Positions 41 through 23,140 of a stretch of 23,140 nucleotides of DNA are shown in pieces (within the stretch, counting starts at the first letter, position 1; the number at the start of each line of letters is the position of its first letter). The DNA is from a virus: IMG/VR virus record IMGVR_UViG_3300044796_000349, positions 1 to 23,140 of that record; one strand, given 5' to 3'. Below the pieces are notes generated by a model. The model was given only the letters and a program-made list of their open reading frames with translations. It had not been told where the DNA came from and ran no database searches. Both the position numbers and the translations under genes were made by a program.

Positions 41-1726
41 ATGTGGGACCTAAGCTGCAAAGACTGGGAGGACCGCATCCGGTCCGGCCGCAGCTTGGTA
101 CCCACGCTGCCACTGTTTGAACGCGAGGCCGCCGAGGCGGTGGGGTTCTTCGACGCCCTTCGGCTGCCAGACGTCCCAGGAACACCGCTGCTCCGTGAGG
201 CCGCCGGCGATTGGTTCCGCGACATTGTCGCCGCACTGTTCGGATCCCGCGATCCGGAGACCAACACCCGGCATATCCGCGAGGTCTTCAACCTGGTGCC
301 CAAGGGCAACAGCAAGACGACCTATGGTGCGGAACTGATGATGACCGCCATGCTGATGAACACCCGGCCAAGGGCGGAATATCTCTTCATCGGCCCGACC
401 CAGGCGATTGCGGACCTTGCCTACAGCCAAGCCGTCGGCACGGTCGAGCTCGATCGGGAGCTGGGCAAGCGCTTCCAGGTCCGGGAGCACCTCAAGGAGA
501 TCGTCGATCGCGTCACACACGCGAAACTGAAGATCAAGACCTTCGACCTCGACATTCTGACAGGGCCACGCCCCGTCGGTGTCCTGCTCGATGAATTGCA
601 TCTGCTGGGCAAGCACGCCGCCGCAGGAAAAGTGTTGCGGCAGCTTCGCGGAGGCCTCGAAAAGAGCACCGAGGGATTCCTGGTGATGATCACCACTCAG
701 TCCGACCAGCCGCCGGCGGGCGTGTTCAGGGAAGAGCTGAACATGGCCCGGGCGGTCCGCGATGGTCGCTTCGCCGGGCGAGTGCTGCCGGTGCTCTACG
801 AGTTCCCGGAAGATATCAGCCGCCCCGTGCGGGCGAACGAGATCCCGGCCTGGTACGATCCGGACACGTGGAAGATGGTCATGCCGAATCTCGGCCGCTC
901 GCTGCGGCTCGATAGCCTGCGGCAGGACTGGGAAGCGGAAAAGGTGAAGGGCGATCACGCCATCCAGGTGTGGGCGTCGCAGCACCTCAACATCGAGATC
1001 GGTCTCGGCCTCAAGGTCGATCGCTGGCGCGGCGCCGACCATTGGCCCAGTGCCGCAAAGCAGGGCCTGACGCTCGAGGGCCTGATCGAACGCAGCGAGG
1101 TCATCTGCATCGGCATTGACGGCGGCGGTCTCGACGATCTTCTCGGCCTCGCCGTGCTCGGCCGCGAGACCGACACCAGGCGCTGGCTTCTCTGGAGCCG
1201 AGCCTGGGCCCACCGGATCGTCCTGGAGCGGCGGAAGAGCGAGCAATCCGTATTCGCCGACCTCGCGGAAGCCGGTGACCTGGTGATTGTCGACGACATG
1301 GAGGTCGCCTTCGCTGAACTGGCGGAAATCGCCGAGCGGATCGACGCCGAGGGCCTCCTCGCCTCCGTCGGCCTCGACCCGATGGGCGTCGGCGCCATCG
1401 TCGACGCGCTCGCCGATCGTGGCATTGAGGGCGATGATCGCGTTCGTGGCGTCCAGCAGGGTTGGACGCTCAATGGTGCGATCAAAACCGCCGAGATCAA
1501 GCTGGCAAACGGCACTCTGCAGCACTGCGGCCAGAAGCTGATGGACTATGCGTTGCAGAACGCCAAGATCGAGCCAAAAGGCAATGCCATCACTATCACG
1601 AAACAGACGTCAGGCGCCGGGAAGATCGATCCGCTCATGGCCATGTTCGACGCCGTCGTCCTGATGAGCCGCAATCCGGAGGCGCTGCGCAGCGTCTATG
1701 CCAGCCACGGGTTGCTGGTGATCTGA
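41..1726 (+). CDS. terL: Phage terminase large subunit (ATPase/nuclease)
   Basis: This is the motor protein that cuts concatemeric phage DNA and pumps it through the portal into the procapsid. The 561-residue protein has the HK97/lambdoid-type TerL layout. A Walker A-like loop VPKGNSKTT lies at residues 86-94, a Walker B VLLDELH at 181-187 (acidic pair D184/E185) and a TTQSD coupling motif at 218-222. The RNase H-like nuclease domain starts near residue 350, with likely metal-binding acids D360 (IGIDGGG), D446 (VGLDPMG) and D530 (KIDPLMAMFDA). The MWDLSC opening at ATG 41 resembles homologues, but no Shine-Dalgarno precedes it and the frame stays open to the window edge, so the true start may lie upstream. 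The portal gene starts inside its stop codon (TGATG), implying translational coupling. No small-subunit terminase is visible. Confidence 0.95.
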   Translation: MWDLSCKDWEDRIRSGRSLVPTLPLFEREAAEAVGFFDALRLPDVPGTPLLREAAGDWFRDIVAALFGSRDPETNTRHIREVFNLVPKGNSKTTYGAELMMTAMLMNTRPRAEYLFIGPTQAIADLAYSQAVGTVELDRELGKRFQVREHLKEIVDRVTHAKLKIKTFDLDILTGPRPVGVLLDELHLLGKHAAAGKVLRQLRGGLEKSTEGFLVMITTQSDQPPAGVFREELNMARAVRDGRFAGRVLPVLYEFPEDISRPVRANEIPAWYDPDTWKMVMPNLGRSLRLDSLRQDWEAEKVKGDHAIQVWASQHLNIEIGLGLKVDRWRGADHWPSAAKQGLTLEGLIERSEVICIGIDGGGLDDLLGLAVLGRETDTRRWLLWSRAWAHRIVLERRKSEQSVFADLAEAGDLVIVDDMEVAFAELAEIAERIDAEGLLASVGLDPMGVGAIVDALADRGIEGDDRVRGVQQGWTLNGAIKTAEIKLANGTLQHCGQKLMDYALQNAKIEPKGNAITITKQTSGAGKIDPLMAMFDAVVLMSRNPEALRSVYASHGLLVI

Positions 1727-4845: not shown

Positions 4846-6099
4846 ATGTCCACGCTTGCTGAACTGAAGGCCGCGCGCGGCGTGGCGATCGACGCCCTCG
4901 CGACCCTTACCAAGGATGCCAAGGCCTTCGCCAGGAAGGAGGCGGAGATCAAGGAGCTCGACGGCGAGATCGAGCGCACCCTCGCCGCCCAAGCCGCAGC
5001 CGCGCGCCTGGCGCGCCCGACCGGCACCGACGGTGGTCCGCAGGGCGATCAGGACCCGAACAAGTTCAAGAACATCGGCGAATTCCTCCGCTCGGTGGTG
5101 CGGTTCCAGACCGGCCGTGGCATGGACAAGCGCCTCGAGGCGGTAAGCCGCGCCCCGACGGGCATGGGCGAGACCGATCCGTCGGGCGGCGGCTTCCCGA
5201 TCCCGCCGGACTTCTCGACCGACATCCTGACCAAGGTCTACGACATGGGCGAGCTGCTGAAGCGCGTCCGCCGGGTGCAGATCAGTCCGACCAGTAATTC
5301 CATCAAGCTGCCCGGCATCGACGAAACCAGCCGCGTCACCGGCAGCCGCTGGGGCGGCGTGCAGGCCTACTGGGTGGCGGAAGGCGATGCCGTCACCGCC
5401 GCGAAGCCGAAGTTCCGCGTCATCGAGCTCGACCTCAAGAAGCTGATGGCCGTCTGGTATATCACCGACGAGTTGCTGAACGACGCACCCGCGCTTGCCA
5501 GCATCGCCAACCAGGCGTTCTCCGAGGAACTGACGTTCATGCTCGAGGACGCGATCTGGGAGGGTACCGGTTCCGGCCAGCCCCAGGGCATCCTCAACGC
5601 GGCCTGCGCGATCAGCGTGGCCAAGGAAACCGGCCAGGCGGCGGCGACACTGCTCTACCAGAACCTGCTGAAGATGTGGTCGCGCATGTGGGCGCGCTCG
5701 CGCTTCGAGGCCGTCTGGTTCATCCAGCAGGACGTCGAACCGCAGCTCTACGCCCTCAACTCGGTGATCGGAACGGCCGGTGTCCCCGTCTACATGCCGC
5801 CCGGCGGCATCTCCTCGGCGCCCTACGCCACGCTGTTCGGCCGCCCGGTGATCCCGATCGAATACGCCTCCACGCTCGGCACCGTGGGCGACATCGTGCT
5901 GGCCGACATGAGCCAGTACGTCGTCGCCGACAAGAACACCATGGAGCAGGCGACCAGCATCCACGTGCAGTTCCTGACCGACCAGACGGCGTTCCGGCTC
6001 ACCTACCGCGCCGACGGCCAGCCGATCTGGAACAGCGCACTGACGCCGTTCAAGGGCACCAATACGCGCTCGCCCTTCGTCACGCTGGCAGCCCGCTAA
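4846..6099 (+). CDS. HK97-fold major capsid protein
   Basis: This is the shell-forming subunit. I chose ATG 4846 over the in-frame ATG 4831 because a GGAG ribosome-binding site lies nine bases before it and MSTLAELKAARG resembles usual capsid N-termini. The 417-residue protein starts with a helical, charged delta-like domain (1-55) that normally acts as internal scaffold and is removed by the prohead protease. A Gly/Pro-rich linker (58-72) follows, where the cleavage site probably lies, and then the HK97 fold. Family hallmarks include GGGFPIPPDFSTDI (114-127), the GTGSGQPQGIL loop (240-250), LFGRPVIPIEY (330-340), and a C-terminal LTPFKGTNTRSPFVTLAA. It has its own flanking non-coding gaps, unlike most genes here, which suits separate tuning of its expression. 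Confidence 0.96.
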   Translation: MSTLAELKAARGVAIDALATLTKDAKAFARKEAEIKELDGEIERTLAAQAAAARLARPTGTDGGPQGDQDPNKFKNIGEFLRSVVRFQTGRGMDKRLEAVSRAPTGMGETDPSGGGFPIPPDFSTDILTKVYDMGELLKRVRRVQISPTSNSIKLPGIDETSRVTGSRWGGVQAYWVAEGDAVTAAKPKFRVIELDLKKLMAVWYITDELLNDAPALASIANQAFSEELTFMLEDAIWEGTGSGQPQGILNAACAISVAKETGQAAATLLYQNLLKMWSRMWARSRFEAVWFIQQDVEPQLYALNSVIGTAGVPVYMPPGGISSAPYATLFGRPVIPIEYASTLGTVGDIVLADMSQYVVADKNTMEQATSIHVQFLTDQTAFRLTYRADGQPIWNSALTPFKGTNTRSPFVTLAAR

Positions 6100-7562: not shown

Positions 7563-7928
7563 ATGGCGCTCACCCTCGATCTCGAGTCGCTCCCCGCCAC
7601 CATCGCCAACGGCACGTCGCTGTCGCCGGCGATTGCGATCGGCGCGAAGGGCTTCTGCGGCATCGTCATGCCGGCCGCCTGGACGGCCGCGCCGATCACG
7701 TTTCAAGTGAGCTCCGACGGCACGACCTGGAACGAGCTCTTCGACATGGCCGGAAACCCGGTGATGGTGGCATCCGCCAGCGCGGCCGCCGGGCAAACCG
7801 CCATGGTTGATCGCGACCTCCTGCGCGGCGCGGTGTTGTTCAAGCTGCGCAGCGGAACGGTTGGCTCGCCGGTCAACCAGGCCGCCGATCGCGTGCTCGG
7901 TATCCTGGTGCGGTCCGAGCTGTGGTAA
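7563..7928 (+). CDS. Unrecognised small beta-rich phage structural protein
   Basis: This 121-residue protein has an excellent AGGAGG ribosome-binding site before ATG 7563. The sequence suggests a small beta-sandwich: an alternating N-terminal strand region, then ITFQVSSDGTTWNELFDMAGNPV (45-67), and a final LLRGAVLFKLRSGTVGSPVNQAADRVLGILV segment. Similar 'F-x-V-S-x-D-G-x-T-W' proteins are common in alphaproteobacterial prophage head regions, but I know of no assigned function. It is the third of a run of three orphan genes between the capsid and the connector. A capsid accessory or decoration role is an inference. Confidence 0.8.
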   Translation: MALTLDLESLPATIANGTSLSPAIAIGAKGFCGIVMPAAWTAAPITFQVSSDGTTWNELFDMAGNPVMVASASAAAGQTAMVDRDLLRGAVLFKLRSGTVGSPVNQAADRVLGILVRSELW

Positions 7929-8050
7929 TGCGCACGGGCACTTATGTGACGCGCGACCTGCCCGCGCCAGTCACGCGTCGGCCGCCGCCGGCCACGACCG
8001 CCGCCAAGCCTGGCACCGGCAAGGAACCCAAGCCGCCGGCGAAGGGGTAG
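7928..8050 (+). CDS. Putative 40-aa basic, proline-rich microprotein
   Basis: A 40-residue frame starts at an ATG that overlaps the previous stop (TAATG) and ends three bases before the connector gene. The product begins MRTGTYVTRDLPAPVTRRP and continues Pro/Ala/Lys-rich to its end (KEPKPPAKG). It has many Arg/Lys residues and no hydrophobic segment. It exactly fills the only space between two certain genes and is translationally coupled, which favours a real gene. Such GC-rich Pro/Ala frames also arise easily by chance, and its region holds the AAGGGG ribosome-binding site of the next gene. No family is recognised. Confidence 0.5.
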   Translation: MRTGTYVTRDLPAPVTRRPPPATTAAKPGTGKEPKPPAKG

Positions 8051-8053
8051 GCG

Positions 8054-8683
8054 ATGAGCGGCGCCGTCTTCCTCTACCGCGATCGCGGCACGCTGCGGGC
8101 GACGTCGCTCGACGTCACCGTGCCACCGGCCGAGGAGCCGGTCGGCCTTCCGGTGGTCAAGCAGCACCTGCGCCTCGACACCGACGTCGACGACACCCTG
8201 CTGACCACCTATGCGACGGTCGCCCGCATGATGGTGGAGTCCTACCTCAACCGGGTGCTGGTCACTCAAACGCTGACCTGGACCGTGCAGGAGGTCGACC
8301 CTCGCCGCACCGAGGCACTGCTCTGGATGCCGACCACGCTCGAGCTGCCCCGCGGCAAGGTTCAGTCGGTGACCTCGGTCACGACGCGCGACGCCACGGG
8401 CGCTGATACGGTCCTCGACCCGTCCAACTACACGGTCGACCTCAACCTCGCTCCGGCCCGGCTGCGGGTCACCTACGGGTCGGTCGTCGGCGAGGTCATG
8501 CATGTGCAGATCGTCTATGTCGCCGGCTATGGCGCCGCGGCCGACGTGCCGCCGCCGATCCAACAGGCGATCCTGATTATGACGACCTTCATGTATGAGA
8601 ACCGCGGCGACACCGATGGCGAATTGCCCCGCGCTGTCGAGTGGCTATGCGATCCCTACCGCATCCACTCATTCGGCGGCTGA
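8054..8683 (+). CDS. Head-tail connector, phiE125 gp8 / HK97 gp6-like
   Basis: This 209-residue protein forms the adaptor ring below the portal that keeps DNA in and receives the head-closure protein. The recognisable core is EEPVGLPVVKQHLRLD, then DTDVDDTLLTTYATVARMMVESYLNRVL (51-78 region), the alpha-helical signature of phiE125 gp8-type connectors. A beta-strand segment with ALLWMPTTLELPRGKVQSVTSV follows, as do DPSNYTVD and LRVTYGSV. The C-terminal helices (PPPIQQAILIMTTFMYENRGD) are also typical. An AAGGGG ribosome-binding site is well placed. It begins the three-gene neck block. Confidence 0.88.
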   Translation: MSGAVFLYRDRGTLRATSLDVTVPPAEEPVGLPVVKQHLRLDTDVDDTLLTTYATVARMMVESYLNRVLVTQTLTWTVQEVDPRRTEALLWMPTTLELPRGKVQSVTSVTTRDATGADTVLDPSNYTVDLNLAPARLRVTYGSVVGEVMHVQIVYVAGYGAAADVPPPIQQAILIMTTFMYENRGDTDGELPRAVEWLCDPYRIHSFGG

Positions 8684-12566: not shown

Positions 12567-12697
12567 GGGCCGATCTGGCGAAGTTCTTCGGTTGGTCGCC
12601 ATCTGAGGTCGGGGCCTTGACTGGCACGGAGTTGGTCTGGTGGGCCGGAGAAATGAACAGGATCGCGACGGCACTGCGGAGTGAGCGGGATGAGTAA
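12267..12697 (+). CDS. Tail assembly chaperone, -1 frameshift fusion product
   Basis: Predicted longer form made by ribosomes slipping back one base at 12530-12536. It shares 90 residues (12267-12536), then continues in the other frame with CAA at 12536 and ends at TAA 12695-12697, for 143 residues. The added 53 residues begin QGWPDNWRELRADLAKFFGW and include SPSEVGALTGTELVWWAGEMNRIA, which looks like the Trp-rich 'gpT/gpE-prime' part of tail chaperones. This frame has no good independent start close to the conserved part, which supports frameshifting. Its end overlaps the tape-measure start. Use a join across the slip site in annotation. Confidence 0.75.
12530..12571 (+). promoter_or_regulatory. 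Programmed -1 ribosomal frameshift signal
   Basis: The zero frame reads GCT TTT TTC, so bases 12530-12536 form the canonical slippery heptamer T TTT TTC. Six bases downstream, GGCCC (12543-12547) can pair with GGGCC (12567-12571), giving a stem that spans the zero-frame stop TAA (12564-12566). Spacing and structure fit a stimulatory hairpin, although the loop is long (19 bases). Frameshifting at this place between the tube and tape-measure genes is established for tailed phages, including Mu-type ones. Confidence 0.75.
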
Positions 12698-14495
12698 CGG
12701 CTTTTCCGTCACGATTACCGCTGTCGACCGCGCGACGAAGTCGATCGACAACGTCAACAAGCGGCTCGCCGCGATGATGGCGCCGGTGACCAGGCTGCAG
12801 AAGGCCTTCGGCAAGTTCGGCGACCTGACCGGGATCAACGCTCTCGGCCGCGGGCTGGCGAGCCTCGCATCCTTCGCCGCGCGTGCCGGGCGCAGCCTGT
12901 TGTCGATCGTGGCGCCCCTCGGTGCGATCACCTCGGCGATCAGCATCGCCGGCATGGCGCGAATGGCCGAGACGTGGTCATCGTTCGCGCAACGGCTGGG
13001 CTTCGATGCAACCCGGATCGGGATCGCCGCCGGGCAATTGCACGCCCTGCAAGGGGCGGCGCGGCTGGCGGGCGCCTCGGGCGAGGCCTTGACCTCGGGA
13101 ATGCGGAACCTCAACGACACCTTGACCGAAGCCGCCGGCGGGCGGAACGCGGAAGCCGTGGTGATGTTCCGGACCCTCGGGGTCGAGTTTACCACCATGA
13201 ACGGCACCGCCCGGCGCGCTGTGGACGTGCTGCCCGACGTCGCCAACGCGATCGCCAGGATCAGGAACCCGGCGCTGCAAGCCCGTGCCGCGACCTCGCT
13301 GTTCGGTGGGGCGGCCGAGGACTTGCTGCCGTTCCTGCGGAAGGGCGCGGCGGGGCTGAAAGAGTACACCGAACTCGCCCGCCGGTATGGCGTGATCACC
13401 GAGGATGGCACCCGGATCGCCGGCGCGATGCGGGAGGCACAAACCCGGCTCTCCCTGTCCTGGGAAGGCCTGGGCAACGTGGTGTCGCAGCGGGTGGCGC
13501 CCGTGCTGACGGACCTGTTCACCTTCATGGCCGAGTGGCTGCTTCGCAACCGCGACCGGATCGTCGCCATCGTTGACGCGGTGGCCAAGGCGTTTTCGAA
13601 CTGGGCCAAGAACGGCGGCATGGACCGGCTGCTCGCGCTGGTCGATCGGATCGCAACCAAGGTCGCTAACATGACGATGCCGACCTGGCTGCAGAAGATG
13701 CTCGGCGTCTCCGACGATCAGGGGAGCGGCGCCGGCGGTGGTTCGGTCGGTGCGGGCGATAACCCCTATGCGGATTGGCCGAGCATCGTGCCGAACTCGG
13801 TCAACGGGTTTTCGTCGGTGCCAAACGATTTCGGGCTGCCGCAATACCAGGCGCCGCCCGAGGCGACGAACCTGAGCAAGAACGGCAAGGCGAAGGCGAT
13901 CTTCGACCAGCTGGTCGGGCTGGGCTGGACGCAGGCAGCGGCAGCCGGGGCGGTGGCGAATTTCGACCGGGAATCGGGCTTCGATGAAATGCAGGTCGGG
14001 GACAACGGGAGGGCCTACGGGCTCGGCCAGTGGCACCCCGACCGGCAGGCGAATTTTCAGCGGGTGATCGGGCGGCCGATCCAAGGGTCGAGCCTCGCCG
14101 ATCAGGTTCGGTTTTTCGATTGGGAGGCGCGCGGCGGCGACAAGCAATTCGCGGCGATCAACGCGCCTTCGATCACGTCGCCTTCGGTGGCCGGACGCCA
14201 GATCAGCGCCGCCGGCGAGCGCCCGGCCGACCGGATCGGCGAGGCCATGATCCGCGAGGGCATGGCGCGCGAGTGGTACACCAGCCTGACGCGCGGCGGT
14301 GACCCGTCGGCCGGCGGCATCTTTGTGCCGGGGGCGTGGCCAGCGCCGGGGGCGCAGAACGCCGGCACCGTCAAGGTCGAGATCGTGAACAAGAACGCGC
14401 CGCCCGGCACGACGATGCGGACGACGACGACGGGGCCGGTGCAGGCATCGGCCAGGGTTGAAACGGCTATGCCGTCGGCTGGTAGCGAGCCGTGA
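12690..14495 (+). CDS. Tape measure protein with C-terminal tail-lysozyme domain
   Basis: This protein sets tail length and is ejected ahead of DNA. ATG 12690 (601 residues) is chosen over GTG 12681 because GGAG lies eight bases upstream. The N-terminal half is helical (FSVTITAVDRATKSIDNVNKRL at the start, a small hydrophobic patch around 70-95, and TLTEAAGGRNAEAVVMFRTLGVEF, a common tape-measure phrase). Residues about 394-534 form a phage tail lysozyme-type domain: AKAIFDQLVGLGWTQAAAAGAVANFDRESGF with candidate catalytic Glu428, then GDNGRAYGLGQWHPDRQANF. This domain should nick peptidoglycan during injection. At about 600 residues it is short for a tape measure, which suggests a fairly short tail. 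Confidence 0.9.
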   Translation: MSNGFSVTITAVDRATKSIDNVNKRLAAMMAPVTRLQKAFGKFGDLTGINALGRGLASLASFAARAGRSLLSIVAPLGAITSAISIAGMARMAETWSSFAQRLGFDATRIGIAAGQLHALQGAARLAGASGEALTSGMRNLNDTLTEAAGGRNAEAVVMFRTLGVEFTTMNGTARRAVDVLPDVANAIARIRNPALQARAATSLFGGAAEDLLPFLRKGAAGLKEYTELARRYGVITEDGTRIAGAMREAQTRLSLSWEGLGNVVSQRVAPVLTDLFTFMAEWLLRNRDRIVAIVDAVAKAFSNWAKNGGMDRLLALVDRIATKVANMTMPTWLQKMLGVSDDQGSGAGGGSVGAGDNPYADWPSIVPNSVNGFSSVPNDFGLPQYQAPPEATNLSKNGKAKAIFDQLVGLGWTQAAAAGAVANFDRESGFDEMQVGDNGRAYGLGQWHPDRQANFQRVIGRPIQGSSLADQVRFFDWEARGGDKQFAAINAPSITSPSVAGRQISAAGERPADRIGEAMIREGMAREWYTSLTRGGDPSAGGIFVPGAWPAPGAQNAGTVKVEIVNKNAPPGTTMRTTTTGPVQASARVETAMPSAGSEP

Positions 14496-17957: not shown

Positions 17958-19100
17958 ATGCCGTTCTCCCGTCCATCGTTGACTGCGCTGCAAACGCAGG
18001 CAATTCAGGACATTGTATCGCAGCTGACCGGCGGGGCATCGCTGCTGCGGCGGGCCATCCTGCGGGCGGTGTCGTGGGCGCAAGCTGGGCTGTCGTCGCT
18101 GCACTACGGGTTTCTCGACTGGATCGCGCAACAGGCAGTGCCCTTCACCGCGACCGACGAATTTCTCTATGCCTGGGGCGCGCTCAAGAACGTGTACCCA
18201 AAGCCGGCCGTGCCGGCGGTCGGCAGCGCGACGTTCACGGGGGTCAACCTGACCTTGCTTCCGGCCGGCACGCCGGTCGTGCGAGCCGATGGGTTCACCT
18301 ATTCGGTGCTGACGTCCGAACCGGTGTCCGGTGGCACCGTGACGGTCGGCATCGTGGCGGCCGTCGGTGGTGTGCTCGGCGATGCCGATAGCGGAACCGC
18401 CGTCACGCTCGGCGTGGCGATCGCCGGCATCAATTCGAGCGGCAGCACAGGCACAGTCAGCGGCGGTGCGGACCCTGAGATGGACGCAGCTTTTAGGGCC
18501 CGGATGCTTCTGGCCTACCAGGCCCCGCCGCAGGGTGGGGCGCTAGCCGACTACGTCGAGTGGGCGCTTGCCACGCCGGGGGTCACGCGGGCATGGATCA
18601 CGCCGCTCGGCGACGGGCCGGGGTCGGTGGTGGTCTACCCGATGTTCGATATCTCCGAGGCCGCATACAACGGCTTCCCGCAGGGGACGAACGGCGGCGC
18701 CAGCCTGGAAACCCGGATCGCCCCGGCGACCGGCGACCAGCTTGCAGTCGCAAATGCCATCTACCCGGTGCGGCCGGTGACGTCGCTCGTTTATGTCGCG
18801 GCGCCGGTGGCATACCCGGTGAACGTGACGATCAACGGCCTCGGGTCGATCAGCACCGCCACGCAGGCCGCGATCTCGGCCGCCCTGGCGAGCGCGTTCA
18901 ACCTCTACGCCGCTGTCGGGGGCACAGCGTGGCCCAACCCGGTGCCGACCATGGTCAACGGCACCATGACGCCGAGCCAGCTCGACGCGGCAATCCAGTC
19001 GGTGCCAGGGCTGAAACCGTACACGCTGGTGGCACCGAACGGCCTCATCACTGCCCCGACGGGCGAACTGCCGGTGCTCGGCACCGTCACCTATACCTGA
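17958..19100 (+). CDS. Baseplate J-like protein (Mu gp47-like)
   Basis: This 380-residue protein is a baseplate wedge component homologous to P2 gpJ and T4 gp6. It contains the family's opening helix (RPSLTALQTQAIQDIVSQL) and a GFLDWIAQQAVPFTATDEFLYAWGALKNVYPKPA segment. A beta domain with GTPVVRADGFTYSVL and a central 'G-x-D-P-E-M-D-A-A-F-R-A-R-M-L' follow. Then come DYVEWALATPGVTRAWITPLGDGPGSVVVYPMFD and a C-terminal VANAIYPVRPVTSLVYVAAPVAYPVNVTI typical of baseplate J proteins. A GGAG lies nine bases before ATG 17958. Confidence 0.92.
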   Translation: MPFSRPSLTALQTQAIQDIVSQLTGGASLLRRAILRAVSWAQAGLSSLHYGFLDWIAQQAVPFTATDEFLYAWGALKNVYPKPAVPAVGSATFTGVNLTLLPAGTPVVRADGFTYSVLTSEPVSGGTVTVGIVAAVGGVLGDADSGTAVTLGVAIAGINSSGSTGTVSGGADPEMDAAFRARMLLAYQAPPQGGALADYVEWALATPGVTRAWITPLGDGPGSVVVYPMFDISEAAYNGFPQGTNGGASLETRIAPATGDQLAVANAIYPVRPVTSLVYVAAPVAYPVNVTINGLGSISTATQAAISAALASAFNLYAAVGGTAWPNPVPTMVNGTMTPSQLDAAIQSVPGLKPYTLVAPNGLITAPTGELPVLGTVTYT

Positions 19101-19109
19101 GCCGCGGCG

Positions 19110-19706
19110 ATGCCGGTTCCTCAATTCCTGGCGGCTGACTACGCCGAGAAGTTCAAGGCGCTGCTGCCGAGCGGGCGGGTCTGGCCGAAGGACGATTCCT
19201 CGGTGCTGTCGAGCGTCTCCGCCGCGCTGATGCCGGCTTATGAGCGGAACAACGACGCGGCGGCCTTCCTGCTGTTTGACGCCTTTCCGGGCCAGTCGGT
19301 GCAGCTGCTTCCCGAGTGGGAATCGACGCTCGGGCTGCCCGACCCATGCACGGGGCCGCTTGCGACGATCCAGCAACAGGACGCGGCGGTCCTGGCGAAG
19401 TTCGTCGGCACGGGTGGTCAGTCGCCAGACTACTTCATCGCGGTCGCCGCTGCGCTGGGGTGGACGATCACGATCACCGAGTTCTTGCCCTTCGAGGCCG
19501 ACGTCGGACACGCGGAAGATCCGCTGTGGGACGAAAGCGGCGCCTACACCTGGCAGGTCAATGCGCCGCTGGTCACGACCTATTGGTTCGAGGCCGACGT
19601 GTCGAGCGCGGACTCGCCGCTGGCAAGCTGGGGCAACCTGCCGCTGCAATGCACGCTGCAACGGATCGCGCCGGCACATACCTACCTGCTGTTCGCCTAT
19701 TCCTGA
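19110..19706 (+). CDS. Tail protein Mu gp48-like (DUF2313/YmfQ)
   Basis: This 198-residue protein follows gp47 exactly as in Mu and P2 (gpI). It shows AEKFKALLPSGRVWPKD at the N-terminus and LLPEWESTLGLPDPCTG (71-87), the best marker of the family, then a domain ending FEADVGHAEDPLWDESGAYTWQV and LQCTLQRIAPAHTYLLF. In Mu/P2 systems it forms part of the baseplate edge to which tail fibres attach. The start has only a weak ribosome-binding site (GCGGCG). Confidence 0.88.
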   Translation: MPVPQFLAADYAEKFKALLPSGRVWPKDDSSVLSSVSAALMPAYERNNDAAAFLLFDAFPGQSVQLLPEWESTLGLPDPCTGPLATIQQQDAAVLAKFVGTGGQSPDYFIAVAAALGWTITITEFLPFEADVGHAEDPLWDESGAYTWQVNAPLVTTYWFEADVSSADSPLASWGNLPLQCTLQRIAPAHTYLLFAYS

Positions 19707-19717
19707 GAGGTCGCCAG

Positions 19718-20779
19718 ATGGTTTTTCGTTGCGATGAAACCAACAACGCGGCGAGCCTGCCGGCGCCGCCATCGGCTGGCACGGAGGGCTATTTCCAGCC
19801 GCCGAACCCCGGTTCCGGCACCACGCCCGTCATCGTGCGGGCGTGGTGGCTCAACATGGTGCAGGAGGAATTGCGGGCGATCGCCGTGGCCGGCGGGCAG
19901 GTGCCGAGCAAGACGAACAACGCGCAGGTGCTGGCCGCCCTCAATGCCCTGTATGCCCCGCTGTCGGGCGCACGGGTGAAGCTGAATTCGCCGCTTTCGC
20001 TCTATGTCAACCAGTCGACCGGCAACGATACCAACGCCGGCACAAGCCTCTCGCCGTTCAAGACGCTGCAGCACGCCGCCAACGTGGTGATGCAAAGCCT
20101 CGATTTGAACGGCCAAACTGTCGTCATCAACTTTGCCCACGGCACCGACACCGGAGGCGTGACCTTCCGCGATATGCCGCTTGGCTGCGGTAGCGGCGGC
20201 GGAGTGCAGTTCGTCGGCGACACGTCTTCTCCGGGCAGCTGCATCGTGAGCGTGACCGGTGGCAACTGCTTTGTCGCCGGAGCCGGCACCACCATCAGCA
20301 TCAGCGGGTTCCATCTGGCGGCGACCGCCGGCGGCTCGGGGATCACCGGCTGCGGGCTGGTGGGAAACCAGGCGTCCTCGATCTCGTTCGATCACTGCGA
20401 ATTCGACGCCTGCGCCACCGCGCACATGTATGCGACCTCGGGCGCGATTATCCAGTCGAACGGCGCCCCCTATGCGATCACGGGCGATTCCGCACCGACG
20501 CCCGAACACATCCTCGTCAGCGGCGGCGGCGGCGTATCGGTGGCCGGCAGCACGGTCACCATCGGGTCGGCGCGAGCCTTCACGGACTTTGTTGCGTCGG
20601 CGCTGAATTCCTGGGTGATCGCGAACGGCATGACCTTCTCGGGTGCCGGCGTGGCCGGGACCACGGGCGCGCGGTACTCGGTGGTCAAGAACGGTGTCGT
20701 CGACACGAACGGCGGCGGGGCAACGTACTTCCCGGGCAACTCGGGCGGAAGCACGGCGTCGGGCGGCCAGTACCTCTGA
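19718..20779 (+). CDS. Tail fibre/spike protein with predicted beta-helix
   Basis: ATG 19718 has a GAGAGG ribosome-binding site seven bases upstream and gives 353 residues; the open frame before it overlaps the gp48-like gene and is not coding. The N-terminal 85 residues (MVFRCDETNNAASLPAPP, then FQPPNPGSGTTPVIVRAWWLNMVQEELRAI) resemble baseplate-attachment domains of fibres. From about 90 a repetitive beta-strand region with NQSTGNDTNAGTSLSPFKTLQHAANVV is characteristic of right-handed beta-helix tail spikes. No polysaccharide-lyase active-site motif can be assigned by eye. The Gly-rich end (NSGGSTASGGQYL) may be a receptor or trimer tip. Confidence 0.85.
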   Translation: MVFRCDETNNAASLPAPPSAGTEGYFQPPNPGSGTTPVIVRAWWLNMVQEELRAIAVAGGQVPSKTNNAQVLAALNALYAPLSGARVKLNSPLSLYVNQSTGNDTNAGTSLSPFKTLQHAANVVMQSLDLNGQTVVINFAHGTDTGGVTFRDMPLGCGSGGGVQFVGDTSSPGSCIVSVTGGNCFVAGAGTTISISGFHLAATAGGSGITGCGLVGNQASSISFDHCEFDACATAHMYATSGAIIQSNGAPYAITGDSAPTPEHILVSGGGGVSVAGSTVTIGSARAFTDFVASALNSWVIANGMTFSGAGVAGTTGARYSVVKNGVVDTNGGGATYFPGNSGGSTASGGQYL

Positions 20780-20782
20780 CCC

Positions 20783-21268
20783 ATGGCCTACATCCCCGAA
20801 ATCTGGACCGGCACGGCGGTTCTGCTGCCGCTCGGGCCGAGCGTGCAGCCGGCGCGGACGGTGCCCTGGCCGCAGTGGGCGACGCCCGCCGGCGGCAGCC
20901 CGACGATGCTGCAAGTGCGCTGGCCGCAGAAGGCGGTCGACGCCGTGCTCGACTACGGCCTCGACCTGACCGGCGAGCTCGCCGCGCTGGGCGACACCAT
21001 CAAGACAGCGACCGTGAGCGCGGACCAACCGTCGCTGACGATTGGCAACCCCACGGTCGGGGCGACCACGGTCGCGGCGTCGGTCAGCGGTGGAACGGCC
21101 TTCATCGATTGCGTGGTGACATGGACCATCGCGACGGCCGGAGGCCGCACCTATGTCGCGGTCGTTCACCTGCTGGTCGTGCCGGATGACGAGTCCGACC
21201 TCTACCTGACCGACGGGGCGGGCAACATCCTCGAAGGGCCGGGCGGCGCGGTTCTTCTGGCGGAGTAG
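20783..21268 (+). CDS. Phage fibre-tail adaptor-like protein
   Basis: This 161-residue protein has a pattern seen in small proteins annotated as fibre-tail adaptors: VDAVLDYGLDLTGELAALGDTIKTATVSA (a 'D-W/L-x-x-x-L-x-x-x-G-D-T-I' phrase), then NPTVGATTVAASVSGGTAF and a strand pair CVVTWTIATAGGRTYVAVVHLLV. No signal peptide is present. It lies between the fibre and a small tail protein and starts three bases after the fibre stop. The final 25 residues (DDESDLYLTDGAGNILEGPGG) look like a short beta-hairpin. Assignment by family phrase, moderate certainty. Confidence 0.7.
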   Translation: MAYIPEIWTGTAVLLPLGPSVQPARTVPWPQWATPAGGSPTMLQVRWPQKAVDAVLDYGLDLTGELAALGDTIKTATVSADQPSLTIGNPTVGATTVAASVSGGTAFIDCVVTWTIATAGGRTYVAVVHLLVVPDDESDLYLTDGAGNILEGPGGAVLLAE

Positions 21269-21275
21269 CGATCAC

Positions 21276-21569
21276 ATGGGCAAGGCAATTTCCTCGCTGC
21301 CGGTGGCGGCGCCGCAGCGGGCCTCGGCGGTCGTGCTGGCCGACAACGGGGGGAGCCAGGCCACCGTCGCCCAAGTGCTCGGTCAGATCGAGTTGACCGA
21401 CCTGCCGCAGGGTATCGCGTCGCCGGGGCAGGCCTTGATCTGGAATGGCGACGCGTGGGCACCGGCAACCGTGCTGACGGCTGTCGTTGCCGCGCTGCCG
21501 ACCTCGGCGAGCGGCCTGCCGAGCGGGGCCATGTGGAACAACGGCGGCGTTCTCTGCGTCGCACCGTAG
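21276..21569 (+). CDS. Small phage tail/fibre-associated protein
   Basis: The 97-residue product starts ISSLPVAAPQRASAVVLADNGGSQATVAQVLGQ, like the N-termini of many phage tail proteins ('I-S-x-L-P...V-x-x-G-G-x-x-x-x-A-T-V-x-Q'). It ends LPTSASGLPSGAMWNNGGVLCV, a common fibre-tip motif. In other phages these two modules often flank a longer fibre, so this could be a shortened fibre or an accessory piece. A GGAG overlapping the previous stop region is about ten bases upstream. Exact function unknown. Confidence 0.75.
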   Translation: MGKAISSLPVAAPQRASAVVLADNGGSQATVAQVLGQIELTDLPQGIASPGQALIWNGDAWAPATVLTAVVAALPTSASGLPSGAMWNNGGVLCVAP

Positions 21570-21586: not shown

Positions 21587-22075
21587 ATGCAGAACGTGAT
21601 CCGGGGCCTCGCGCTCCTGCTGGTGCTTGCCCTGGCGCCGGTGGCCGGCCGCGCACAAGCGAGCTTCACGAACCCCGACGGGTCGCGCTCGCCCGCTTCG
21701 GTGGCAGAGATCAAAACTGGCGCCGGCACGTCGGACGCGGTTTCGACGTCCAACCCGATGCCCACGGCGTCGGCCGGGACGGTGGCCGTGGCCTATAGCG
21801 GCCCGACCTCGGCCAGCGTGGGGACCAGCTCGGGGACGTTGATCACGGCCGCGGCCTACACGCGGGCGGTGCAAATCTGCACGCTGCCGACCTCGACAAG
21901 CAACGTGTGGCTACGCCTGGACGGTGGCACGGCGGCGCCAAATGTCGGCGTGCCGGTGTGGGGCGGAGGGGGCTGCACAAGCATCGGCACCCCTGCCCTG
22001 CCGATGCCGACCGGCAATATCACCGCGATCACCGACGGCGGCAGTTCGCAAACTGTGACCCTGGCCGGTGGCTGA
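21587..22075 (+). CDS. Exported protein of the fibre module (Sec signal peptide)
   Basis: This 162-residue protein has a classical Sec signal peptide: n-region MQNVIRG, a Leu/Ala/Val core (residues 8-19), and an AQA-like cleavage site after about residue 25. The mature part is small and beta-rich: TNPDGSRSPASVAEIKTG, an AVAYSGPTSASVGTSSG segment, then a strand pair ending SNVWLRLDGGTAAPN and a Gly-rich CTSIGTPALPMPTGNITAITDGG. Two cysteines (RAVQICTL and GGGCTSIG) could form a disulphide in the periplasm. It starts 17 bases after the preceding tail gene, with GGAG/AAGG upstream. No family recognised. Its position suggests a fibre accessory or envelope-modifying protein. Confidence 0.82.
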   Translation: MQNVIRGLALLLVLALAPVAGRAQASFTNPDGSRSPASVAEIKTGAGTSDAVSTSNPMPTASAGTVAVAYSGPTSASVGTSSGTLITAAAYTRAVQICTLPTSTSNVWLRLDGGTAAPNVGVPVWGGGGCTSIGTPALPMPTGNITAITDGGSSQTVTLAGG

Positions 22076-22079
22076 ACCC

Positions 22080-23140
22080 ATGCGGCGGTTCCTCGCCCTC
22101 GCCCTGCTGCTCCTGACCGGCGCCCATGCCTGGGCGCAGTCGGAGGGGCCGGTCAACGCCAACATCGTAGCCAAGGGCGGGTCGGCCGTCCGGACCCTGG
22201 CGACGCATTTTGCCGACAACCTCAATGCCGCCGACTTCGGGGCGGTGTCGAACGGCGTCAGCATCACCGCCGCCGCGACGATCACCTCGGGGCAGACCGC
22301 CCTCTATGTTCCGGGTGGCAGCTTCACCTCGGCCGACGTGGGCAAATATATCGCCGTGCCGGGGTCGGGGGCGGCCGGCGGGACGCAGTCGACCACGATT
22401 GCGAGCGTCACCGACGGCCAGCATATCGGGCTGACCTCGACCGCCTCGAGCACGCTCAACGGCTCGAGCAGCGTGCAAATCCGCTATGGCTCGTCGGACC
22501 TGACCGCGGTCAACGCAGCCCTGACGGCTGGCACCGGGTTGCTGCCGGCGGGCGCGACCTGGGTTAGCACCACGCCAAGCGGGAACTTCCGGTTCTGGAC
22601 CGAACGCAACGGGGTGCTCGCCGACAACGTGGCGCAGCACGCCCGCAACTATGGCAACTGGAACACCGGCAGCACCGGCGCCCCGGATTGGTCGAGCACG
22701 CAACAGAACGGCATCAACGGGGCCTTCAACCCGGATTTCAGCAAGTCGATTCTCCCCTGGGAATGGCGGATCGGCTCGTCGGTCCTGACCAGCCAGCCGA
22801 GCGGCGCCGGCGCCTATGTCCGCCAGCCGCAGCTTTCGCCGGTATACGGGTATTTCTTCAGCCAGGGCGGCTATAACGTCCAGACCTCGGGCAACGGAAC
22901 CCGGTCGGGCTTCTCTGCCTATGAAACGAAATTCGACCAGTACGGCCAAGGCGATCTGACCGCCTATGTCTGCAACGGGTTCATCGCGTCGCAGCGGAGC
23001 GGCGCGACCTCGTTCCTTGCCTCGCCGGCTGGCGAGTGCGTGGGCGGCCAGATTATTTTCAGCGCCAACGGACAGTACGGCGAATTCATCGGCGACGGCA
23101 ACCTGACCGACGCCGGGAACGACGTCGCCGCCATCGGCGA
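22080..23140 (+). CDS. Tailspike-like protein with signal peptide, 3' end beyond window
   Basis: An open frame from ATG 22080 runs to the window end (353 codons without a stop). It opens with MRRFLALALLLLTGAHAWAQ, a textbook Sec signal peptide with cleavage after AWA (residue 19). The mature region reads ADNLNAADFGAVSNGVS then ITSGQTALYVPGGSFTSADVGKYIAV, phrases typical of the N-terminal head of tailspikes and pectate-lyase-like proteins, so this should be an adhesin or depolymerase. Later residues are Ser/Gly/Thr-rich, with Trp- and Tyr-rich parts (NYGNWNTGSTGAPDWSS, SPVYGYFFSQGGYNV) and two cysteines (CNGF, GECVGG). The start lies four bases after the preceding stop, with a weak ribosome-binding site. 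The C-terminus and any catalytic residues are outside the window. Confidence 0.8.
   Translation, partial: MRRFLALALLLLTGAHAWAQSEGPVNANIVAKGGSAVRTLATHFADNLNAADFGAVSNGVSITAAATITSGQTALYVPGGSFTSADVGKYIAVPGSGAAGGTQSTTIASVTDGQHIGLTSTASSTLNGSSSVQIRYGSSDLTAVNAALTAGTGLLPAGATWVSTTPSGNFRFWTERNGVLADNVAQHARNYGNWNTGSTGAPDWSSTQQNGINGAFNPDFSKSILPWEWRIGSSVLTSQPSGAGAYVRQPQLSPVYGYFFSQGGYNVQTSGNGTRSGFSAYETKFDQYGQGDLTAYVCNGFIASQRSGATSFLASPAGECVGGQIIFSANGQYGEFIGDGNLTDAGNDVAAIG

Follow-up and report, generated by a model that had tools for sequence, protein, structure and literature searches.

Tail-like proteins with predicted Sec signals at the end of a contractile tail module, and their recurrence in other phages

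The contractile tail module of the phage analysed here ends in two genes whose products are of tail type and are both predicted to be exported by the Sec route. Signal-bearing, cysteine-paired tail-like proteins of this kind recur across phages of contractile, siphovirus-like and podovirus-like type. The usual view is that the folding and assembly of phage tail proteins take place in the cytoplasm, and the recurrence means either that proteins derived from tails are exported and used in free form late in infection or that tails can be completed outside the cytoplasm. Bcep781 and Bcep1, which are in culture, would allow either meaning to be tested, and either affects the annotation and production of depolymerases and receptor-binding proteins (periplasmic expression with disulfides). 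We give a probability of about one half to the reading that the two genes form a cassette of the late tail operon whose tail-derived products are exported by Sec, are stabilised by disulfides and act on glycans of the host surface as the cell lyses or afterwards.

Results

The stretch of DNA analysed (the window, 23,140 nucleotides) is a whole IMG/VR record from a contractile-tailed phage and encodes terminase, sheath and tape measure. The small product of the pair is here called SPsm and the tailspike-like product SPspk (Table 1). The cassette is placed at the end of the contractile tail module because the baseplate wedge genes J and W lie upstream of it; baseplate, fibre and adaptor genes all precede SPspk. 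The weak match of the 97-residue protein to the MPTI.LP module that starts the spikes of sister prophages is no more than suggestive, and a reading of this gene as a split-off anchor was set aside as weakly supported (7.8 bits). Elsewhere in the window, residues ~400-545 of the tape measure (12681-14495) match PHROG families that differ from those of its N-terminal part, and this region is possibly a lytic domain.

Table 1. Features of the tail module and of the two signal-bearing products in the window.
Feature	Position	Strand	Basis
Baseplate wedge genes, J-like (17958-19100) and W-like (19110-19706)	17958..19706	+	phrog_6, phrog_203
Separate tail fibre without signal peptide	19718..20779	+	
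gp77-like fibre-tail adaptor	20783..21268	+	PF23148, E 1.8e-13
97-aa protein	21276..21569	+	MPTI.LP N-terminal module, weak HMM match, 7.8 bits, i-Evalue 0.0036
SPsm, 162-aa small protein with predicted export; C-terminal ~90-aa beta domain, phage-typical fold	21587..22075	+	homologues; fold of L069 homologue
SPsm predicted signal peptide, residues 1-25, cleavage AQA-S (alternative GRA-Q)	21587..21661	+	rule-based scan
Cys98 codon (CTLP), first Cys of conserved pair	21878..21880	+	alignments A3, A4
Cys130 codon (GGGC), second Cys of conserved pair	21974..21976	+	alignments A3, A4
SPspk, tailspike-like, predicted export, open at contig end	22080..23138	+	phrog_32881; Acetobacteraceae relatives
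SPspk predicted signal peptide, residues 1-19, cleavage AWA-Q	22080..22136	+	rule-based scan

Both products open with a Sec-type signal peptide, as an earlier note on this DNA had described. SPsm begins with MQNVIRGLALLLVLALAPVAGRAQA, cleaved before SFTN, and SPspk with MRRFLALALLLLTGAHAWA, cleaved before QSEG; the n-region charge, hydrophobic core and AxA site expected for Sec and SPase I are found in both. Signals were scored with our own rule-based heuristic (n-region charge, h-region, AxA site), which is not SignalP. On this scale SPsm reaches 13.4 and SPspk 13.3, and among the other tail genes of the window only that of the 97-residue protein scored, weakly (8.2). The background rate among 581 phage genes is 1.9% at scores of at least 11 and 0.5% at scores of at least 13, none of 1184 internal fragments scored at least 11, and composition-preserving shuffles of the two N-termini reached the observed scores in 1.5e-4 and 3e-4 of trials. 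Because the +1 position holds no Cys in either SPsm or SPspk, and a lipobox is thus absent, we read type I signals and judged a lipoprotein of the superinfection-exclusion type less likely. The Tat route was judged less likely than Sec because the h-regions are very hydrophobic, although SPspk starts with MRR.

The phrases AADFGAV and SADVGKYIAV, noted earlier as of tailspike type, are present in SPspk as described. A pectate-lyase-type start, RTLA..FAD..NAADFGA, follows soon after its signal peptide, with no N-terminal virion-anchor module before the start of the putative beta-helix. Residues 38-148 match phrog_32881 (pectin lyase activity) at E 6.8e-7, and it is this one PHROG match that points to a catalytic nature. 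AlphaFold modelled SPspk poorly (pLDDT 35), and a scan of GTDB contigs with SPspk gave no match. SPsm has two cysteines in its mature part; SPspk has two so far, its gene being truncated.

The distribution of the signal among SPsm homologues follows that of a conserved Cys pair. Six of the nine homologues have both the signal and the pair CTL(P/F)..GGGC (the window, G243, L065, L066/G681, L070 and L205, with the variant GGC in place of GGGC in L065), while the remaining three (L069, L203 and L206) have neither. The Fisher p-value for this co-occurrence is 0.012, and it falls to 0.005 if a gene adjacent to the L065 cassette (4989-5420) is counted, which by eye apparently encodes this beta domain with neither a signal nor cysteines; these values, like those for cysteine parity below, are optimistic since the phage and host homologues are partly related and not phylogenetically independent. 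Two of the signal-less members start approximately at the mature start of the others, as seen when L069 (VTDTTGTLRVRDGSG) is set beside mature L205 (QTTTTTMSVRDGTG). Because the signal-less members start about where the mature part does, it looks as if a phage-type domain has either gained the signal at its front or lost it. A structure model was made of the L069 homologue, not of SPsm from the window, and its C-terminal domain is confident. Against BFVD this domain matched 22 phage proteins at E of at most 0.001, many of them uncharacterised Caudovirales proteins, and it gave no significant match in the PDB. SPsm was not found in the sampled Alphaproteobacteria (385) or in the order of Gluconobacter (397), and when the proteins of the window were compared by tblastn with 50,697 phage records, nothing was returned.

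The arrangement of the two genes is also repeated elsewhere. At five of the six signal-bearing SPsm loci a signal-bearing partner lies 3-4 nt downstream, of pectate-lyase-like, SGNH/arabinofuranosidase-like (GDSL and ArabFuran domains) or tail-fibre type. The SPsm relative in the Acetobacteraceae genome G243 is 57% identical and bears a signal too; 3 nt beyond it starts a second signal-bearing gene (SP2), the mature part of whose product carries arabinofuranosidase-type and GDSL/SGNH domains. We suggest that this relative lies in a siphovirus- or GTA-like prophage, where neighbouring genes read as NlpC/P60-like and tail-tip-like and where a sheath homologue was not found. IMG/VR relatives with the same arrangement are L065 and L205, both contractile, the latter with homologues of window J, W and gp77, and the podovirus-like L066/G681 (67 kb, with a DNA ejection protein match). 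G681 has four consecutive signal genes, a run that crosses the contig junction, since a near-repeat of ~139 bases is common to the two ends of the contig and the second signal gene continues across them. In G682 (L069) a signal-less SPsm homologue precedes four signal genes, two of which read signal, then QPAPGAPLVKSRNLGD..ARTNLGLGTIATQ, the classical tail-fibre repeat. L070 has SPsm with a signal, a next gene without one and a signal-bearing spike upstream; in L203, a related contractile phage, the same place is taken by an SPsm homologue and a large protein, both signal-less. A signal-less fibre is retained in the window, L205, L203, Bcep781 and Bcep1. Two more signal-bearing small proteins are encoded in L077 (G682; 373-1098 and 7884-8324, minus strand), one of them near head genes. 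L079 (G684; 258-1511, plus strand) is an ORF of 417 aa in which a strong signal precedes NLIDNGNFNIYQRGT, a phrase like those of phage fibre and decoration proteins, on a contig that also carries a signal-bearing spike and SPsm.

How often such signals precede fibre repeats was estimated by an unselected IMG/VR scan for ARTNLGLG. Among the matches listed, 4 of the 73 ORFs with an intact 5' end bear a signal that lies at the start or close to it (L103, L113, L130 and L149); L100 is also signal-bearing given a later start, and the share is about 5-7% among the matches listed. L149 has two consecutive signal genes. The ORFs in L103 (4524-7028) and L113 (8901-11318), on contigs of ~50% GC, have near-identical starts, METTNVMKK(I/N)LSLVISAALIVSGYA with QTRNVL after the cleavage site, and then tail-fibre repeats; they are apparently a separate lineage of signal-bearing fibres. 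A signal is absent from the SGNH protein of Caulobacter phage Kuura.

Cysteine counts differ between signal-bearing and signal-less proteins. Proteins whose disulfides form outside the cytoplasm are known for cysteines in even numbers. Of the signal-bearing proteins that are complete and whose mature part holds one or more Cys, 14 have an even count and 1 an odd count, against 13 even and 21 odd among signal-less tail-fibre ORFs (p=2.9e-4) and 33 even and 69 odd among signal-less genes of the same phages (p=8e-6). Later cases were also even, namely Bcep781 gp49 (14), Bcep1 gp51 (4) and L240 (12). The even counts are what disulfide folding outside the cytoplasm would lead one to expect.

Cultured Burkholderia phages encode comparable proteins. 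Bcep781 gp49, on which GenBank notes 'possible tail fiber; possible signal peptide domain', matches the signal-bearing spike of L070 with 31% identity over 80%. Bcep781 gp49 and Bcep1 gp51 have a common mature start, QFAPGQ(V/I)LTAAQLN, and are 77% identical over the first 30 mature residues and 46% identical in their signals, both of which are still signals. L239 and the near-identical L240/L241 are near-full-length homologues with signal-like starts, which score 9.8 and 8.4 and rank below the strongest class, and L242-L244 are short, distant matches on 39% GC contigs, with a convincing signal in none. Bcep781 and Bcep1 also have separate signal-less possible tail fibres that adjoin baseplate genes (gp31, gp33); therefore the signal-bearing Bcep protein is, on sequence grounds, a tail-like protein additional to these, and the window shows the same situation.

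Exported-type relatives of both partner types are found in Acetobacteraceae chromosomes, outside recognisable prophages. Those of pectate-lyase type (L040 and L042-L044) lie partly near genes that read as glycan-related, and their signals are clear in L040 and L044 and plausible by eye in L042 and L043. Those of SGNH/arabinofuranosidase type (L228, L230 and L233, in Acetobacter-like genomes) adjoin genes that read as acyltransferase-like and SGNH-like. This latter locus (L228 1759-9280, L230 6055-13665, L233 1266-8865) is conserved in Acetobacteraceae chromosomes and encodes SGNH-like and acyltransferase-like proteins, a very large signal-bearing protein and an exported-type homologue of the phage SP2. 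The last tail gene of a contractile prophage (L041) has a modest signal (8.5) directly before tail-fibre sequence and a tail-fibre tip. Such comparisons suggest that virion spikes and exported host enzymes may exchange parts.

Discussion

The explanation that we favour takes SPsm as a small phage-type beta domain and SPspk as a putative tailspike-like, glycan-active protein, the predicted signal peptide of which occupies the place of the virion-anchor module of sister phages. Both proteins would, with good support from the sequence, be exported, cleaved and disulfide-folded in the periplasm; they may then gather there apart from the assembling virions, with the fibre encoded at 19718 as the probable virion fibre. 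In the periplasm, and then in the surroundings once the outer membrane opens at lysis, they may bind, cut or de-esterify host surface polysaccharide, with the outcome that progeny would not be trapped by, or re-adsorbed to, host glycan. Action in the envelope was one of the options in the earlier note, and exported proteins that act on the envelope or exopolysaccharide fit best; uptake into virions after export is less probable, and signals that go unused are disfavoured. Against the favoured explanation stand the signal-less pair at the same place in L203, by which these may be virion parts, the gene without a signal downstream of SPsm in L070, and the seven cysteines of G243 SP2; it also leaves unexplained how the outer membrane would be crossed before lysis.

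A possible though doubtful alternative is that the proteins are virion parts, such that SPsm and fibres would be exported, disulfide-folded in the periplasm and docked on the gp77-like adaptor when lysis mixes the compartments. The genes lie directly after that adaptor and a gene of anchor-like type, a position that in sister prophages is held by anchored spikes, signal-less counterparts occupy the same place in L203, and L041, L069 and L070 retain tail-fibre repeats and tip domains; however, SPspk is without an anchor module, a separate signal-less fibre is present, and literature searches turned up no precedent. We know of no case in which tail parts are exported and then docked on virions. 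No paper on signal-bearing phage tail proteins was found among the open-access papers searched; the Bcep781 genome paper, outside that scope, may discuss them. As a general proposition, that some tailed phages have fibres and a small partner Sec-exported, disulfide-bonded in the periplasm and joined to virions only at lysis strikes us as rather doubtful. It is unlikely that the proteins serve superinfection exclusion or host modification by masking or modifying, ahead of lysis, the polysaccharide that the infected cell or lysogen offers as receptor. Receptor-type domains do occur as free proteins with predicted export, SGNH esterase partners could strip acetyl groups, and the host homologues adjoin apparent glycan-modification genes, but the late tail-operon position favours expression near lysis, and such proteins also occur in the Bcep781 group, which we take to be virulent. 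If so, lysogenic conversion, as proposed earlier, would not be their general role.

We regard as the least likely reading that the hydrophobic N-termini are unused for export and reflect chance, wrongly called starts or remnants left by recombination with exported enzymes of the host. Similar exported proteins in host chromosomes could have donated the N-terminus, and signal-less homologues exist. Whether conserved starts lie downstream of the hydrophobic segment, a concern raised at the outset, was checked in the homologues: L069, L203 and L206 do start approximately at the mature part, but those same three are without the cysteines. Signals are retained in divergent homologues (Bcep781 gp49, Bcep1 gp51, L070, L239 and L240), up to four signal genes are consecutive, and both the co-variation with the Cys pair and the cysteine parity speak against unused signals. 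The earlier claim that export signals on these tail-type proteins are not due to chance has thus held up, as the signals recur on homologues and track the Cys pair and the Cys parity differs.

Comparison with known systems

The spikes of sister Acetobacteraceae prophages (L045, L046 and L048) lie at the same place as SPspk, after a gp77-like adaptor, and some have sequence in common with it; unlike SPspk, they begin with the MPTI.LP module and are without a signal. Late phage proteins that use host Sec before lysis, as proposed for SPsm and SPspk, are known in the exported endolysins (Lys44 of fOg44 and the SAR endolysins), but these are peptidoglycan lysis enzymes and not of tail type (PMC6116005). 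The MAT fibres of Bdellovibrio are phage-tail-fibre-like adhesins with a signal peptide; in contrast to the window genes they are bacterial and serve predation, and their reported role is binding, not glycan cleavage (PMC10769870). WceF of Pantoea stewartii, an exported right-handed beta-helix of tailspike fold that acts on exopolysaccharide, would resemble SPspk as read here from its sequence, in which an export signal is found, but it is encoded by a bacterial gene in an EPS locus, has a Tat signal and is not phage-encoded (PMC7949094). The Naesvirus proteins Bcep781 gp49, Bcep43 gp48 and Bcep1 gp51 differ from the window in that they are encoded by a single gene with no SPsm partner seen, and sequence homology between these fibres and SPspk is not detectable. 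Like the window products, however, they have a signal peptide after which tail-fibre sequence begins immediately, and Bcep781 and Bcep1, the two in which cysteines were counted, also have an even Cys number and a separate signal-less fibre gene in the genome.
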